From: Gammaproteobacteria bacterium | Lineage (GTDB): Bacteria; Pseudomonadota; Gammaproteobacteria; HK1 | Length of the DNA: 6,974 nucleotides | Direction: 5' to 3' | NCBI GenBank assembly: GCA_022822245.1 | Contig: JAJECB010000505.1 | Location: forward strand, 1 to 6,974 | Part shown: one piece after another, positions 1 through 6,974 of the stretch | How positions within the stretch are numbered: the stretch's first letter is position 1 | Layout of the letters: every line of letters starts with the position of its first letter | Position numbers and translations under genes: made by a program | Notes under the pieces: model-generated | Told to the model about the DNA's origin: nothing | Databases searched by the model: none | What the model saw: the letters and a program-made list of their open reading frames with translations, nothing else

Positions 1-1716
1 CTTGAGGATGCTGAGGAGTGGATTGGCGGCGGCCTGCCCGAGGCCGCAGATCGAGGCGTCGGCCATCGTCCGGCTGACGTCCTCGAGGAGGGGCACGTCC
101 CAACTCGGGCGCTCCATCAGCCGGACCGCCTTCTCGGTGCCGACCCGGCACGGGGTGCACTGCCCACAGCTCTCGTCCTCGAAGAAGCGGAGGAGGTTGA
201 GGGCGACCGCGCCCATGTCGTCGCGGTCGCTCAGGATCACCACCGCGTGCGATCCGACGAAGCATCCGTGCTTCTCGAGGGACCCGAACTCGAGGGGAAG
301 GTCCGCCATCGACGCGGGGAGGATCCCGCCCGACGCGCCGCCCGGAAGGTAGCCCCGGAACGCGTGCCCCTCCAGCATCCCGCCGCAGTGCTCCTCGACG
401 AGCTCGCGCGCGGTGGTGCCGGCCGGCACGAGCTTGACCCCGGGCTCGCGCACCCGCCCCGAGACCGAGTAGCTGCGAAGGCCCTTCGCCTCGCCCTTCC
501 CCGCCCCCGCGAACCAGTCGGCCCCGCGGGCGAGGATCTCGGGCACCCAGTACAGGGTCTCGACGTTCTGCACCAGGGTCGGTCGCCCGAAGAGGCCCAC
601 CTCGGCCACATAGGGCGGACGGTGGCGCGGAAGGCCGCGCTTGCCCTCGATCGATTCGAGCATCGACGACTCTTCGCCGCAGATGTAGGCCCCCGCCCCC
701 CGCCGGAGCTCGAGGCGGTGCGGGCCGGCCCGGCCCTCGCGCTCGAGGCGCGCGATCTCGGCTTCGAGGATCTCGCGCGCCGCCGGGTACTCGTCGCGGA
801 GGTAGATGTAGACCGTCTCCGCCTCCACCGCCCACGCGGCGATGAGCACCCCCTCCAGGAACTGGTGGGGGCGGCGCTCGAGGTAGTACCGGTCCTTGAA
901 GGTGCCGGGCTCCCCCTCGTCGGCGTTCACCGCCATCAGACGCGGGCCGGGATAGGAGCGGACGATGCTCCACTTGCGGCCGGTCGGGAAGCCGGCCCCC
1001 CCGAGCCCGCGAAGGCCGGCCTCGTTCAGGGTCTCGACTGCCTGGTCCACCGTGCGGCGCCCCGCCCGGCAGTCCTCGAGCACCGCATACCCGACGCTCT
1101 CGACGTAGGCGTCGTAGTCCTCGTAGTCGGGTACGTGGGGGTGGGTATCCCCCGCCGCGGCCGCCGCGAGAACGGACTCCGCCGTCGCGCGGTCGATGTG
1201 GTGGTGACCGACTTCCGCAACGGGCGCGGTGTCGCAGCGCCCCATGCAGGGGGCCCGGACCACGCGCACCCCGTCCGGGCGCCCCTCCTCCAGGGCGGCC
1301 ATGAGCGGGACGGCGCCCGCGAGCTCGCACGAGAGGCTGTCGCACACCCGCACGGTGACGGGAGGCGGGGGGGCGGCGCCGTCCGCCACGATGTCGAAGT
1401 GGGCGTAGAACGTGGCGACCTCGTACACCTCCGCCTGGGAGAGGCGGTACTCGGCCGCGAGGGCCGCGAGATGCCGGGCGTGGAGGGCCCCGAAACGGTC
1501 CTGGACGAGGTGCAGGTGCTCGATGAGGTGGTCGCGCCGGTGCGGCCCGCCGCCAATGAGGCCGCGGATGTCCTCGCACGCGGCGGGGTCGACCTGCCGG
1601 CCCTTGGGCGTCGTCCGCCCCCGCCGGCGGCCCCGCCGGTTCGCGGGTACCGAATCGCCCGTGGCGGCGCCAGGGGTCGCCACGTCGCCCGGCCCCGGAG
1701 GGCGGCCCCCCGCCAT
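1..1716 (-). CDS. NAD-dependent formate dehydrogenase beta subunit, NuoE-NuoF fusion (3' end truncated by window edge)
   Basis: This diaphorase subunit would pass electrons from the Mo/W catalytic alpha subunit through Fe-S clusters to FMN and NAD+ in the cytoplasm. From ATG 1716 the frame has 572 residues and no stop before the edge. Residues 40-200 form a NuoE-like thioredoxin-fold [2Fe-2S] domain with ligands C125, C130, C157 and C161. Residues 233-249 hold the NuoF motif GLRGLGGAGFPTGRKW. NADEGEPGTFKD (264-275) and RGAGAYICGEES (339-350) complete the FMN/NADH site. An SLBB-like segment follows near 413-445. The [4Fe-4S] site is C517, C520, C523 (ESCGQCTPCR) and C557. The PKGRQVDP segment and overall order recall Methylobacterium Fdh1B (about 572 residues), so probably only some 15-25 C-terminal residues are missing. 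The start is uncertain: GTG 1683 would give an N-terminus closer to the Fdh1B length, and ATG 1818 is also in frame. HoxF or a complex I NuoEF fusion are less likely alternatives. Confidence 0.9.
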   Translation of the reverse strand, partial: MAGGRPPGPGDVATPGAATGDSVPANRRGRRRGRTTPKGRQVDPAACEDIRGLIGGGPHRRDHLIEHLHLVQDRFGALHARHLAALAAEYRLSQAEVYEVATFYAHFDIVADGAAPPPPVTVRVCDSLSCELAGAVPLMAALEEGRPDGVRVVRAPCMGRCDTAPVAEVGHHHIDRATAESVLAAAAAGDTHPHVPDYEDYDAYVESVGYAVLEDCRAGRRTVDQAVETLNEAGLRGLGGAGFPTGRKWSIVRSYPGPRLMAVNADEGEPGTFKDRYYLERRPHQFLEGVLIAAWAVEAETVYIYLRDEYPAAREILEAEIARLEREGRAGPHRLELRRGAGAYICGEESSMLESIEGKRGLPRHRPPYVAEVGLFGRPTLVQNVETLYWVPEILARGADWFAGAGKGEAKGLRSYSVSGRVREPGVKLVPAGTTARELVEEHCGGMLEGHAFRGYLPGGASGGILPASMADLPLEFGSLEKHGCFVGSHAVVILSDRDDMGAVALNLLRFFEDESCGQCTPCRVGTEKAVRLMERPSWDVPLLEDVSRTMADASICGLGQAAANPLLSILK

Positions 1717-2136: not shown

Positions 2137-4401
2137 ATGTCCCAGTATCTCTGCGGCCTCGACATCGGGGGAACGTTCACCGACTGCGTGATCGTCGACG
2201 ACGGGGGCCGGGTGGTGAGCGCCAAGGCGCCCTCGACACCGGACGACTTCGCCGAGGGCCTCATGCACGCGCTCGAAGCGGCGGCCGGCAAGGTCGGGCA
2301 GCCGGTCCGGGAGCTTCTCGCGAACACCTCGCTCGTATCCCACGGCACCACCGTCGGCACGAACGCGATCGTCCAGAAGCGGGGCGCCCGGGTCGGCCTC
2401 GTCACCACCCGCGGGCACAACGACGTCATCCACATCATGCGGGGCTCGCGCGGGCTCGACGGCCGCGAGGTGCGCCAGGTGGTGCACATCCCGGAAAGCC
2501 GGAAGCCGAGCCCGGTCGTGCCGAAGCGGCTCATTCGCGGCGTCTCCGAGCGCGTGGACTGCTTCGGGCAGGTCGTGGTGCCCCTCAACGAGGCGCAGGC
2601 CGAGGCGTCCATTCGCGAGCTCATCGCCGAGGACGTGCAGGCGATCGCGATCTGCTTCCTCTGGTCGTTCCTCGAGCCCGCGCACGAGCGGCGGGTCAAG
2701 GACATCGCCCGCAACCTCGCCCCGGGCCTCTTCGTCACCTGCTCCCACGAGCTCGTGCCCAAGTGGGGCGAGTACGAGCGAACCACCGCCTCGTGCCTCA
2801 ACGCCTATGTGGGGCCGGTCACCACGAGCTATCTCGCGGACATCGAGGGGCGGCTCGCGCGAGCGGGATACGGCGCCCCGCTCCAGATCACCCAAGCCGC
2901 GGGCGGCACCATCCCCGTCGAGGTCGCGCGCCGCTCGCCGCTCCTCACCCTCGACTCGGGGCCGGTCGCGGGGGTGATGGGTTCGCGGCACTCGGCCGGG
3001 GCGATGGACTACGAGAACGTAATCACCACCGACATGGGCGGCACCTCGTTCGATATCGGGGTCATCCACGGCGGCGAGCCCGCCTACTCGTTCCGGAGCA
3101 AGGTGCACCAGTACGAGTACTACCTGCCGAAGGTGGACATCCAGGCGATCGGGAGCGGCGGCGGGAGCATGGTCCGGATCGACGAGGTGACGGGCACCCT
3201 CCGCGTCGGCCCGGAGAGCGCCGGGGCCGAGCCCGGCCCGGTCTGCTACGGCCGGGGCGGCGACGTGCCCACGGTGACGGACGCGGATCTGGTGCTCGGA
3301 CGCCTCAACCCCGACAACTTCGCGGGCGGCACCATGCGGCTCGACCTCCCCGCCGCCCGGCGCGCCATCGAGCGGGTGGCGGACCGGCTCGGGATGGACG
3401 TCGACGCATGCGCGGCCGGGATCACCCAGATCGTCGAGTTCCAGATGGCGGACCTCATCCACAAGGCGACGATCCAGAAGGGCTTCGACCCCCGGGACTT
3501 CGTGGTGTTCGCGTTCGGCGGGGCGGGGCCGGCCCACGCGGGGGTGTTCGCGGCGGAGCTCGGAGTCTCCAAGGTGGTCATTCCGCAGCGGGCCACCGCC
3601 TCGGTGTGGTGCGCGTTCGGGGCGGCGTCGGTCGACCTCCTCCACATCTACGAGCAGGTGGACATCATGGCGTCGCCCTTCGACCGCGCCCGGGTCAACG
3701 ACCTCCTCGCGTCGCTTCGCGGGCAGGCGGAGACGCAGCTCCTCGCGGACGGGCTGCCGCGCGAACGACACCGCTTCCGCTATGCCCTCGACATGCGGCA
3801 CAAGGGCCAGATCAACGAGGTGGAGGTGGGGCTCGACGAGATGCCGGTGGGGGGCGGCGAGTTCGACCGCCTCCCGGAGCGGTTCACCGCCCTCTACGAA
3901 CGGCTCTACGGGAGCGGGTCGTCGCTCGCGGGGGCGCGCCTCGAGATCGTGACCGCGAGGTGCCGGGCGTCCGCCGCGACGCCGAAGCCCTCCTTCGTGC
4001 GCCGCGAGGACCTGACCCCGGACATCCCCGGAGAGGCAGGCCTCGGGCGCCGCTCGGTCTACTGGCCGCGCATCGCGGGGACCGCGGCGGGCGCGCCGCC
4101 GGCGGTCGCCGCAGCGGGAGGCAAGGCCCGTGGCGAGGGAGGCGCGAACGGCGCCGGGGGAGGCGCGGACCGCGGCGACGGCCTGCCCGGCCGCCTCGAC
4201 ACGCCCATCTACGACGGCCACCGGCTCGTGCCGGGGAACGCGCTCGAGGGCCCCGCCATCGTGGAGCTCGACACCACGACGGCGGTGGTGCACCCGGGAC
4301 AGACCCTGCGGATGGACGCCTACGGCAACTTCGAGCTCTTTCCCGGCGGCGCGAATCCGGACCCGGACCCCGGCCGCGCGAACGCGCACCAGGCGCAGTA
4401 G
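2137..4401 (+). CDS. Hydantoinase A/oxoprolinase-family ATP-dependent subunit, acetone/acetophenone-carboxylase-like
   Basis: A 754-residue HyuA-family protein (AcxA/ApcA-like role), probably the ATP-binding subunit that phosphorylates substrate and/or bicarbonate together with the downstream HyuB protein. Hydantoinase A N-terminal region: DIGGTFTD (residues 9-16) and HGTTVGTNA (69-77). Central ASKHA-type ATPase: DMGGTSFD (299-306), GSGGGS (339-344) and FGGAGPAHA from 460. The C-terminal domain ends with PGNALEGPAIVE and TTTAVVHPGQ. Between VYWPRIAG and LDTPIYDG lies an Ala/Gly-rich insertion of about 35 residues (649-684). ATG 2137 is chosen because family members start a few residues before the DIGGTFTD loop. 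Its best purine-rich stretch, GAAGGGAG at 2113-2120, is 16 nt away, which is too far for a strong site. In-frame ATG 2053 would add 28 unconserved residues. The partner gene follows after 71 nt with no terminator. N-methylhydantoinase or an oxoprolinase-like amidase remain possible. Confidence 0.88.
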   Translation: MSQYLCGLDIGGTFTDCVIVDDGGRVVSAKAPSTPDDFAEGLMHALEAAAGKVGQPVRELLANTSLVSHGTTVGTNAIVQKRGARVGLVTTRGHNDVIHIMRGSRGLDGREVRQVVHIPESRKPSPVVPKRLIRGVSERVDCFGQVVVPLNEAQAEASIRELIAEDVQAIAICFLWSFLEPAHERRVKDIARNLAPGLFVTCSHELVPKWGEYERTTASCLNAYVGPVTTSYLADIEGRLARAGYGAPLQITQAAGGTIPVEVARRSPLLTLDSGPVAGVMGSRHSAGAMDYENVITTDMGGTSFDIGVIHGGEPAYSFRSKVHQYEYYLPKVDIQAIGSGGGSMVRIDEVTGTLRVGPESAGAEPGPVCYGRGGDVPTVTDADLVLGRLNPDNFAGGTMRLDLPAARRAIERVADRLGMDVDACAAGITQIVEFQMADLIHKATIQKGFDPRDFVVFAFGGAGPAHAGVFAAELGVSKVVIPQRATASVWCAFGAASVDLLHIYEQVDIMASPFDRARVNDLLASLRGQAETQLLADGLPRERHRFRYALDMRHKGQINEVEVGLDEMPVGGGEFDRLPERFTALYERLYGSGSSLAGARLEIVTARCRASAATPKPSFVRREDLTPDIPGEAGLGRRSVYWPRIAGTAAGAPPAVAAAGGKARGEGGANGAGGGADRGDGLPGRLDTPIYDGHRLVPGNALEGPAIVELDTTTAVVHPGQTLRMDAYGNFELFPGGANPDPDPGRANAHQAQ

Positions 4402-4472: not shown

Positions 4473-4479
4473 ATGGAGG
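4458..4479 (+). promoter_or_regulatory. Two consecutive ribosome-binding sites for alternative HyuB starts
   Basis: GGAGGA at 4458-4463 lies 9 nt before ATG 4473. GGAGG at 4475-4479, inside the first codons, lies 8 nt before the in-frame ATG 4488. Both spacings are near ideal, so either or both starts could be used, and the products would differ by five residues (MEATN). Confidence 0.65.
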
Positions 4480-6839
4480 CGACGAACATGCTTCGAATCA
4501 GCGAGATGCAGGACGTCCGATTCGACGGGAAGCACTACCCCTACGTTCCGCCCGAGGCGCTCCGGATCGCGGAGGCGCTCAAGCTTCACCGGGACTGGTC
4601 CGAGGACCTCGACCCGGTGACCTTCGAGGTCATCCGCCACAACCTCTGGCACGTGAACGAGGAGCACGGCACCACCATCCAGAAGGTGTCGGGGTCTCCG
4701 GTCGCGATGTACGCCCTCGACCTCAACCCCTCGATCCTCACCGAGGACGCCGAGTTCGTGTACTTCGGCCCCTACATGCAGTACATGTCCGGGGTCACCG
4801 ACACCCAGGTGAAGTGGATCCTCGAGCACCGGAGCGAGAACCCCGGGATCCGCGACGGGGACATGTTCCTCGCGAACGACCCCTGGGTGGGCGCCGCCCA
4901 CCAGCAGGACGTGATGCTCATCTGCCCGGTGTTCCACGAGGACGAGCTCTTCTGCTGGGTCACGAACTGCCTTCACCAGTACGACATCGGGGGGATCACC
5001 CCGAGCAGCTTCTGCCCGGCCGCGGAGAGCGCCTACGACGAGGGAATCCTCATCCCGCCGGTCAAGATCGTCGAGGGCAACGTCATCCGGCGCGACATCG
5101 AGGAGATCTACCTCCGGGCGTCGCGCAAGCCCGAGATGGTGGCCCTCGATTTCCGCGCCCAGCTCGCCGGCAACACGACGGCGAAGGCGCGCATCGCGGC
5201 CCTTGTCGATCGCTACGGGCCGGCGACCGTCAAGGGGGTGATGAAGCGGATCATCGACAACGCGGAGAAGGCGTTCCTCGACAAGATGGCCCGGCTCCCC
5301 GACGGCGAGTGGCAGGAGCGGACCTACGTCGAGTCGTGCCGGCCGGGCGACCGCCGCACCCACCGGGTGGTGCTCACGGTGCGCAAGGAAGGCAGCCGCC
5401 TCACCTTCGAGAACCACGGGAGCGCCCCCCAGGACGGGGCGATGAACGCCACCTTCTCGGGGTGGCGGGGCTCGGTGATGGTGGCGATCAACGAGCTCCT
5501 GTGCTGGGACCAGTACTTCGCGGTCGGCGGCGCGCTCCGCCACATCGACTTCAACCCCACCCCCGGCACCTTCAACTGCGCGAACTTCCCGGGGTCGGTC
5601 TCCACCGCCCCGATCCAGGCGATGGAGATATCCCTCTACCCGGCCTACAACGCGCTCTCGAAGATGATCCACGCGGACCCGGAGATGCGGCGCGACATCA
5701 TGTGCATCGGCGGGACCAGCCAGTGGCCGTGCACCGTGTTCCGGGGCATCGACCAGTGGGGCGAGCGCTACGGGTACATCCTGGTCGACCCGATCGGCGG
5801 GGCGATCGGCGCCTTCGCGCACGCGGACGGCATCAACACGGGGGGGCAGGTCCGCACCCCCATCTGCCAGCTCCCGAACGTCGAGCACACCGAGCAGAGC
5901 TTCCCGGTGCTGTTCCTGTACCGCAAGGAGCTGCCGGACTCGGGCGGGGCGGGGCGCTTCCGGGGCGGGATGTCCGCCGAGAGCTGCTTCATTCCCCACA
6001 ACACCGAGGAGATCGTGCAGGACACCCTGTCGTCGGGGAACGCGGCGCCCACCTCGCCGGGACTCATGGGCGGCTATCCCTCGACCACCAACCGGTACGC
6101 CTACGTCACCGGGAGCGACATCGGCGAGCGGTTCGCCCGGGCGGAGATGCCGGAAGACATCGACGAGGTGGAGGGGACGCCGGTCCACCTCGAGCTCCGC
6201 CAGCAGAACCTGACGCAACGCGCCTCCGACGTGTACGCGGTGCGCTGGTGCGGGGGCGGAGGGTTCGGCGATCCGGCGGAGCGCGCCCCGGAGGCGGTCC
6301 AGGCCGACCTCGACAACTTCGCGATCACGGAGGGGGCGGCCCGCGACATCTACGCGGCGGTGCTCGACGAAGAGACCGGCCGGGTGGACGCCGAGGCCAC
6401 CGCCCGGCGCCGGAAGGGACTGCGGGCGGAGCGGGTGGCAAGGCTCGGCCGCCGCGATGCCAGGCGCGAGGGCACCCTCGTTCACGAGGTCACCCCTTAC
6501 CTGCACGCGAAGCGCGACGAGCGCGGCGCGTTCTGGGCGTGCGCCCGGTGCGGCACGGCGCTCGGCGGGATCGAGGACAACTACAAGCTCGGCTGCAACC
6601 GCGAGGACCGGCACATCTCCACGTCGAACCCGCTCATCGGCGAGCCCCGCGACTTCATCAACGACGACATCGAGTTCCGCCAGTTCTCGTGCCCCGGGTG
6701 CGGGACCCTCATCGAGAACGAGGTGGCGGTCGCGAGCGACCCGGTGCTCCGGGACATCGACCTCCGAGCGGCCGGGAGGGAGGTATTCGCCTGCGCCGAG
6801 TCCGAGGCGGAGGTGGAGGTCCCGATGGATGGAGACTGA
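4473..6839 (+). CDS. Hydantoinase B/oxoprolinase-family carboxylase subunit with fused acetone-carboxylase-gamma-like zinc domain
   Basis: A 788-residue protein (783 from ATG 4488), the likely metal-binding catalytic partner of the HyuA subunit. Residues about 45-650 are a hydantoinase B domain: [13 protein letters not shown] at its start, [31 protein letters not shown] (490-499) and GGGGFGDP (594-601). H143, D146 and H168 have the same spacing as the Mn ligands H150, D153 and H175 that I recall for the acetone carboxylase alpha subunit AcxB. After a charged linker, residues about 667-770 resemble AcxC, the gamma subunit (Acetone_carb_G family): CARCG (C690, C693), DNYKL, then [13 protein letters not shown] (C740, C743) and DPVLRDIDL. 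These two CxxC pairs should bind zinc. The usual AcxB lacks this domain, so a gene fusion is inferred. The stop overlaps the start of the next gene. The substrate is unknown, probably a ketone or related carbonyl or enol compound. Confidence 0.9.
6815..6820 (+). promoter_or_regulatory. Ribosome-binding site deciding the nitroreductase start
   Basis: GGAGGT lies 8 nt before ATG 6829, inside the 3' end of the HyuB gene. This favours ATG 6829, which overlaps the HyuB stop by 11 nt, over GTG 6841. GTG 6841 has only GGAG (6831-6834) at 6 nt. The overlap suggests translational coupling. Confidence 0.65.
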
Positions 6840-6974
6840 GGTGAGCACGCATCCCTTCGTGCCGCTCGCGGGCTACCGGGAGTATCCGGAAGACGAGATG
6901 GCGGCGCGGGCGCGCGAGTTCCACGCGGAGCTCGCACGCCGGCGCACCGTCCGGGACTTCGCGAGCCGCCCGGT
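6829..6974 (+). CDS. Nitroreductase-family FMN oxidoreductase (5' part only, truncated by window edge)
   Basis: Only the first 48 codons and two bases are visible. The N-terminus contains [17 protein letters not shown], then an amphipathic Arg/Ala/Glu-rich helix, and [13 protein letters not shown] at residues 37-49. The Arg-Arg-x-Val-Arg-x-Phe pattern is the N-terminal FMN-phosphate-binding motif of nitroreductase-like flavoproteins, and the preceding FVPL..YREYP..EM segment is typical of one subfamily as I recall it. Complete members are usually about 200-230 residues and act as soluble dimers using NAD(P)H. The start overlaps the HyuB stop in another frame, so the gene is probably the third member of the operon, placed where a separate carboxylase gamma gene might be expected. 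Its substrate cannot be inferred. The subfamily also includes enzymes unrelated to nitro groups, such as BluB-like and deiodinase-like proteins. Confidence 0.8.

Follow-up and report, generated by a model that had tools for sequence, protein, structure and literature searches.

The analyzed window is a stretch of 6,974 nucleotides (contig JAJECB010000505.1 of the gammaproteobacterial assembly GCA_022822245.1) that carries, on its forward strand, a gene pair encoding a HyuA-type protein and a HyuB-type protein extended by a domain related to the small zinc subunit (gamma) of ketone carboxylases. The first gene, hyuA (2137..4401), encodes a 754-residue alpha subunit, i.e. an ASKHA ATPase (PF05378, PF01968 and PF19278). 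The second one (4473..6839), assigned from Pfam and from the family consensus, encodes a fused HyuB(beta)-gamma protein of 788 residues as read; since the consensus of 49 fused sequences opens with MxRISEM, its true start is probably Met6 (4488), giving 783 residues. This protein successively includes: (i) the Hydantoinase_B domain (residues 47-601, 4611..6275), with the predicted beta metal site Asp83/His143/Asp146/His168 (4719..4976 from first to last ligand), (ii) the C-terminal helix of the beta part and a short linker (residues 640-667, 6390..6473), delimited on the secondary structure of the model, and (iii) the gamma domain (residues 668-764, 6474..6764), with two predicted zinc-binding pairs, Cys690 and Cys693 in a CxxC motif (6540..6551) and Cys740 and Cys743 in a CPxC motif (6690..6701).

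The preliminary description of this locus had proposed, from motifs aligned by eye, that residues 667-770 of the frame 4473-6839 (6471..6782) are a zinc domain like the AcxC subunit of acetone carboxylase (Acx), and expected PF02538 followed by PF08882. Both domains were found in this order, PF02538 at residues 47-601 (E = 3.1e-102, above the Pfam cut-off) and PF08882 at residues 677-764 (39.9 bits for a cut-off of 21, E = 5.5e-10). The AlphaFold2 model of residues 661-760 reaches block means of 89-96 in predicted local distance difference test (pLDDT) and, in the structural comparison that had been advised, Foldseek matched one fused chain with the beta-type chains of acetophenone carboxylase (Apc) and Acx and, separately, with the gamma chains of the same entries. 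A score over the curated cut-off and a gamma fold thus place the domain in the PF08882 family, and the four cysteines of the putative zinc site are conserved. The letters ECGH, DNWKL and CPECGTL do occur in the alignment with the Acx gamma chain 5svb_C. However, the closest solved gamma is that of Apc (5l9w_C, E = 7.6e-9 with the domain alone as query), compared to E = 0.76 for 5svb_C. The ApcB model of NCBIfam matches residues 685-764 with 28.5 bits, far under its equivalog cut-off of 250, and weak matches to cereblon and Yippee were also found. Cys690 and Cys693 were taken as counterparts of Cys22 and Cys25 of Apc gamma, and Cys740 and Cys743 as those of its Cys75 and Cys78 (PMC5214803). In 49 fused sequences whose identity falls to about 42%, neither these four cysteines nor Arg736 and Phe738 vary at all; judging from this conservation, the gamma domain is under selection in the fused clade that includes the window (hereafter the core clade). 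That one chain joins the beta and gamma parts of a ketone-carboxylase-like complex can be regarded as firm.

The gene pair was then counted in 80 loci (79 contigs and the window, the broken gene of L059 being left out). The fused gene comes just after alpha in 54 of the 57 loci having more than 500 bases before beta, with a median gap of 11 nt over 53 directly adjacent pairs. Since a second HyuA match was found in only one of 80 contigs (L075), where it belongs to a separate pair on the opposite strand, the alpha' chain specific to Apc does not belong to the set within the extent of the contigs (many are short, and the flanks of the window are those of its 6974 bases); a single HyuA match was likewise found in the 20 kb surrounding the near copy L004. 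A two-chain enzyme with a fixed stoichiometry had been deduced from the fusion. The first part agrees with the two-gene alpha/beta-gamma set, whereas the second is not new, beta and gamma being already 1:1 in the crystal structures of Apc and Acx (PMC5214803, PMC5543143), so the fusion would turn an existing ratio covalent rather than create it. Furthermore, Acx gamma mainly contacts the beta-type chain, named alpha there (PMC5543143), and a C-terminal arm of Apc beta embraces gamma (PMC5214803). Therefore, the fusion would join neighbours and the architecture need not change.

Divergently from hyuA, a gene that runs off the window edge (1..1716, reverse strand) carries NuoE-like and NuoF-like domains (PF01257, PF01512, SLBB and PF10589) in a single frame, as in soluble diaphorases, and is probably outside the HyuA/HyuB-gamma system. 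A relative of this gene occupies the same place in L004, with no tie to the enzyme shown. On the other side, an ATG frame at 6829 begins a nitroreductase gene that also runs off the window (6829..6974, forward strand; its counterpart in the close relative L003 is PF00881) and shares 11 bases with the 3' end of the fused gene, in line with the overlap initially noticed.

Both chains retain the motifs of the hydantoinase/ketone carboxylase family, to which the pair belongs by its HyuA (ASKHA) and HyuB chains with their ATP and metal motifs. The residues Asp83/His143/Asp146/His168 are kept in all 17 fused rows and align with Asp65/His123/Asp126/His148 of Apc beta, the ligands named in PMC5214803. 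The first of these ligands is a Glu in 11 of 12 Acx rows (the twelfth has a gap) and an Asp in the hydantoinase/oxoprolinase (Hyd) and Apc rows. HyuA displays the ATP motifs DIGGTFTD, DMGGTSFD and GPESAGAEPGP, whose key residues are kept in 44-47 of 47 relatives, and the ERxD..G fingerprint, assigned to alpha rather than alpha' by PMC5214803. The beta part scores 215 bits with ApcD versus 160 with CapB (NCBIfam) and, against solved chains, 184 bits with 5l9w_A and 108 with 6yra_B.

All trees are unrooted and some of their rows were trimmed by fixed residue number; eight Hyd rows were dropped from the beta and alpha trees, and thirteen, eight and fifteen further rows, set by set, from the wider trees (lighter sets or long branches). 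The beta tree (63 rows, the fused ones being 14 of 62 full-length locus proteins and three database proteins) separates with 100/100 support the core clade (17 rows), Hyd (21) and Acx (12), and with 99/99 support Apc (13). The core clade is also supported at 100/100 in the alpha tree, whose fused-locus rows are 13 of 47 alphas, and in the gamma tree (41 rows). In the alpha tree, the Acx row L096 bears a Hyd label, and the two changes counted there for Hyd and for Acx are an error due to this label. The window is therefore located outside the sampled Acx clade (beta, gamma and wider trees), outside the sampled Apc rows (beta, alpha, gamma and wider trees), which join Acx without it at 97/92, and outside the sampled Hyd clade, whose rows form one side of a 100/100 branch of the beta tree and to which it is nearer than Apc and Acx are.

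Gene clusters shared by the neighbourhoods of 81 loci, each named from one representative, include PuuE-like deacetylases (n = 19), molybdenum (Mo)-hydroxylase large subunits (n = 17), branched-chain-type ABC transporters (n = 15) and 3-hydroxyisobutyrate-dehydrogenase-like enzymes (n = 12), besides FAD monooxygenases that, of all solved structures, come closest to 2,6-dihydroxypyridine hydroxylase. Genes for Mo-hydroxylase large subunits are present in 13 of 29 core loci compared to 2.84 expected from genome density, a test free of any fused-locus query bias but whose probability is too small since the loci are related. In a comparison that favours fused loci, from which the queries were drawn and which are also longer, the PuuE-like cluster and the Mo-hydroxylase cluster were each found in 14 of 39 fused loci and none of 25 Acx/Apc loci, and LivFG in 12 of 39 versus 3 of 25; short-chain dehydrogenases/reductases (SDRs) are no commoner near fused loci (6 of 39 versus 7 of 25). 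These data suggest that many core members act in the catabolism of aromatic or N-heterocyclic compounds; we found nothing in the literature that links the fused system to a pathway. Cultured wider relatives came from a plasmid collection (13 records with a match, seven of them inspected). The alpha-beta-gamma set of Haloterrigena precedes an AMP-binding protein, the gene order is SDR-alpha-betagamma-SDR-acyl-CoA ligase in Rhodococcus opacus and alpha-betagamma-CoA transferase-enoyl-CoA hydratase in R. pseudokoreensis, in Halorientalis SDR-alpha-betagamma is accompanied, on the opposite strand, by a nearby AMP-binding gene, and the Natronosalvus set lies near a thiolase and an acyl-CoA dehydrogenase. 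By analogy, the CoA-activating neighbours of several of these relatives would follow the logic of the Apc (acetophenone) pathway. The two haloarchaeal alpha-beta-gamma sets, of Haloterrigena and Natronosalvus (L192:8928-9227 and L193:8977-9258), are annotated as hydantoinase plus acetone carboxylase gamma.

We tentatively propose, with a confidence that stays slightly short of even, that HyuA and HyuB-gamma form a bicarbonate-dependent carboxylase of an enolisable carbonyl compound, active in a catabolic pathway, the reaction being one that we infer. HyuA would spend ATP at its ASKHA site to activate both the substrate and bicarbonate, and the activated groups would then move to the beta metal site, where the bond would be made; gamma, held covalently at the C-terminus of beta, would most likely stabilise the complex. 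As no second ATPase chain lies beside the pair, the single ATP site would be used sequentially, like in Acx or caprolactamase and unlike in Apc, possibly within an alpha2(beta-gamma)2 assembly. The domains and the predicted fold, the intact ATP and metal sites and the adjacent alpha gene are consistent with a carboxylase, and carboxylation is favoured by the presence of gamma, which in the account of PMC5214803 is known only from carboxylase branches, by the beta scores and by the CoA-type neighbours of wider relatives.

Several points weigh against a carboxylase, and some of them point to a serious, though not probable, alternative: an ATP-dependent lactam, imide or hydantoin hydrolase of the caprolactamase type, involved in N-heterocycle breakdown, that would have kept gamma as a structural part. 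PMC5214803 argues that gamma is remote from the active site and probably plays no part in carboxylation; its presence is therefore not in itself proof of a carboxylase. Alpha is nearer to CapA of caprolactamase (545 bits) than to ApcC (454 bits, NCBIfam), and VIA-align matches the beta part best with CapB. The core clade is on the Hyd side in both trees: an inner branch of the beta tree (97/92) sets Apc and Acx apart from the core clade and Hyd, and the alpha tree joins the core clade with Hyd at 94/87. The metal site has an Asp rather than a Glu, like in Hyd (and Apc) rows, and caprolactamase itself requires bicarbonate (PMC8453981). The excess of Mo-hydroxylase large subunits and the clusters of PuuE-like deacetylases and of FAD monooxygenases nearest 2,6-dihydroxypyridine hydroxylase also fit a hydrolase. 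A Mo-hydroxylase, flavin-dependent oxygenase, flavin reductase or PuuE-like gene belongs to the same operon-like run in 20 of 80 core loci, compared to only two of 80 for the AMP-ligase cluster. Furthermore, the neighbours of the Mycobacterium branderi copy are P450s and not CoA ligases, those of the window (nitroreductase and NuoEF) give no clear pointer, and we found no assay of the fused form in the literature. However, the characterised hydrolases described in PMC5214803 have no gamma, the beta part scores closer to ApcD and Apc beta than to CapB, and several wider relatives adjoin CoA ligases or transferases.

The comparison with these wider relatives revealed that gamma is not always fused. 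In genome G772, alpha and beta are completed by a gamma gene of its own, which encodes 94 residues and shares 4 nt with beta (L184); the clade of this set also includes the fused member L189 and L190, counted as fused by eye from two CxxC pairs in the same frame that gave no profile match. L183 is a divergent fused form, and P0219 (688 residues), from the split clade, has an apparent frameshift past the end of beta and was counted as split. On the Haloterrigena and Natronosalvus plasmids, gamma has its own gene, whereas those of M. branderi, R. opacus, R. pseudokoreensis, Halorientalis and Niveispirillum carry a fused gamma stretch that ranges from clear (56 bits in M. branderi) to eroded. In the R. 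opacus protein (L195:7989-10298), this stretch (5.8 bits) is without the first cysteine pair, which makes zinc binding of the known kind hardly possible. The R. pseudokoreensis and Niveispirillum proteins have a weak gamma match and branch beside Hyd (95/87 and 97/80, with a long-branch warning and in unrooted trees). On a 52-row tree, the core clade corresponds to one change and the fused or split state, Hyd rows not being counted, changed at least four times. Therefore, the fusion is old and common, yet was made or undone repeatedly, and it was rejected as the unique mark of one clade. The distinct carboxylase subfamily evoked in the preliminary description is retained as a clade apart from the sampled Acx and Apc, but the fusion does not define a single subfamily. 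At E = 1e-120, a search of 398 genomes of the phylum, without positive control, yielded no split-type beta; at E = 1e-150, four of 50 genomes with a fused gene had one.

These observations may delineate, besides Hyd, Acx and Apc, a broad fourth zone of the family, found in bacteria and haloarchaea and combining one ATPase chain, beta and a gamma repeatedly fused or split, in which the window clade would be the most abundant fused form, a two-chain carboxylase involved in aromatic or N-heterocycle breakdown. Since the fused forms of R. pseudokoreensis and Niveispirillum with an eroded gamma branch next to hydantoinases, the gamma-less hydantoinases could have arisen within this zone by gamma loss. 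This scenario as a whole is speculative and rather unlikely. It is still more doubtful that gamma is in general a vestige, whose zinc binding or function would no longer be needed and whose fusion would be a neutral step toward loss: the missing cysteine pair of R. opacus, the weak matches beside Hyd and the absence of a profile match in L190 go in this direction, but the four cysteines, Arg736 and Phe738 are invariant throughout the 49 fused sequences despite their divergence.

The frequency of the fusion, which could not be judged from the window, was estimated from proteins and genomes. A protein search scored on residues 660-788 retrieved 83 proteins, all with both Pfam domains; with residues 1-660, it retrieved 1734 proteins, and 112 of the best 120 (73-96% identity) have both. 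A scan of contigs from 84,980 species, with fused domains as seeds, gave 102 confirmed places, of which the best 80 were kept. The domain is preceded by more than 400 residues of the same open frame in 70 of these 80 contigs, a proportion that is not a frequency given the fused seeds and the selection of the best 80 of 102; seven others end at the contig edge and three are short or broken. On these counts, we rejected the fusion as a one-off. The record titles of these best 80 of 102 name gamma-, beta- and alphaproteobacteria, Rokuibacteriota, SAR324, Myxococcota and Planctomycetota, and 78 of the 80 mention a metagenome-assembled genome. A fused copy was found in one of 398 genomes of the phylum and in three of 369 of the class, and the nearest genome, G001, used in place of the window's own, is among those counted in each case; stand-alone PF08882 matches, recognised by frame length or inspection, amount to nine and 30, respectively. 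The fusion is therefore common in metagenome-derived proteins but rare in sampled genomes.

The fused copy is the sole PF08882 match in 25 of the 29 genomes that carry it, in a search that misses weak gamma stretches (L189 of G763 and L190 of G765 are absent from its list). The additional matches of the other four are an Apc-like operon in G770 (L182), the second fused form L183 in G765, the split set L184 in G772 and, in G763, two stand-alone matches. In 17 genomes of the window's family, PF08882 was found only in G001, G399 and G414, once each and in a long (fused) frame. HyuB (PF02538) genes number at least 26-28 per genome of about 5 Mb in the nearest genus (G001, G399 and G400) and at least 29 in G414, of the same family. 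Some genomes accumulate PF08882 matches (12 in G615, seven in G526 and six in G499, one of the latter being a fused copy), with several Acx/Apc-like operons side by side. Core fused genes also occur in four metagenome bins titled Klebsiella pneumoniae (L014, L017, L025 and L077); since L014 groups with gammaproteobacterial bins that lack a genus name, these titles may be wrong. That annotation or assembly merely reads two genes as one is practically untenable: two long-frame hits (641 and 770 residues, at L142 and L156) were indeed rejected as fusions, being stand-alone gamma genes whose frame runs over a neighbouring gene, but the long open frame shared by 70 of 80 contigs, the contig edges that end seven of the other ten, the well-folded beta-gamma junction of the AlphaFold2 model and the unsplit state of most independent copies of the core clade led us to reject a frame artefact.

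To our knowledge, only a handful of enzymes carry out the biotin-free, ATP-dependent carboxylation of inert carbonyls, and they comprise three to five subunits. The novelty here is that a single protein combines two subunits that are distinct chains in known ketone carboxylases; this fused form is widespread among uncultured bacteria and also present in a few cultured microbes. We found no paper whose title or abstract describes a beta-gamma fusion, the subscription literature being mostly outside this search, and the current labels (N-methylhydantoinase B, hydantoinase B/oxoprolinase) conceal the fused form. If it is a carboxylase, no other form would be as easy to produce and examine as this natural two-gene one, which metagenomes contain in abundance. 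It could further show whether the divide between carboxylases and hydrolases has any link with the gamma zinc domain, PMC5214803 arguing for a structural gamma.

The passages of PMC5214803 on gene arrangements cover those of Hyd, Acx and Apc only. The window set resembles Apc of Aromatoleum aromaticum (5l9w) by its alpha-type and beta-type chains, its nearest solved gamma, its CxxC/CPxC zinc site and the Asp of its metal site. However, Apc has a second ATPase, alpha', and epsilon in some operons, and its gamma is encoded by a separate gene between alpha' and alpha (PMC5214803), whereas gamma is fused in the window set and no alpha' was found with it within the extent of the contigs. Apart from the fusion, the gene order is collinear with that of Acx from Xanthobacter (5svb, 5svc and 5m45), but Acx gamma is separate, downstream of beta, with about 50 additional N-terminal residues (PMC5214803), the first metal ligand is a Glu (XaAc Glu89, PMC8453981) instead of Asp83, and the first zinc pair is CxC in most Acx rows instead of CxxC. 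Unlike the window protein, CapAB (6yra) and the ATP-dependent hydantoinases (NMHase, 9h03) have no gamma domain. The Haloterrigena and Natronosalvus plasmids provide the top two beta hits of the plasmid collection (47.6% and 41.3%) and, like the window, have adjacent alpha, beta and gamma; their gamma is a separate gene instead of a fused domain, and Haloterrigena carries another HyuA-family gene about 4 kb upstream, on the other strand.
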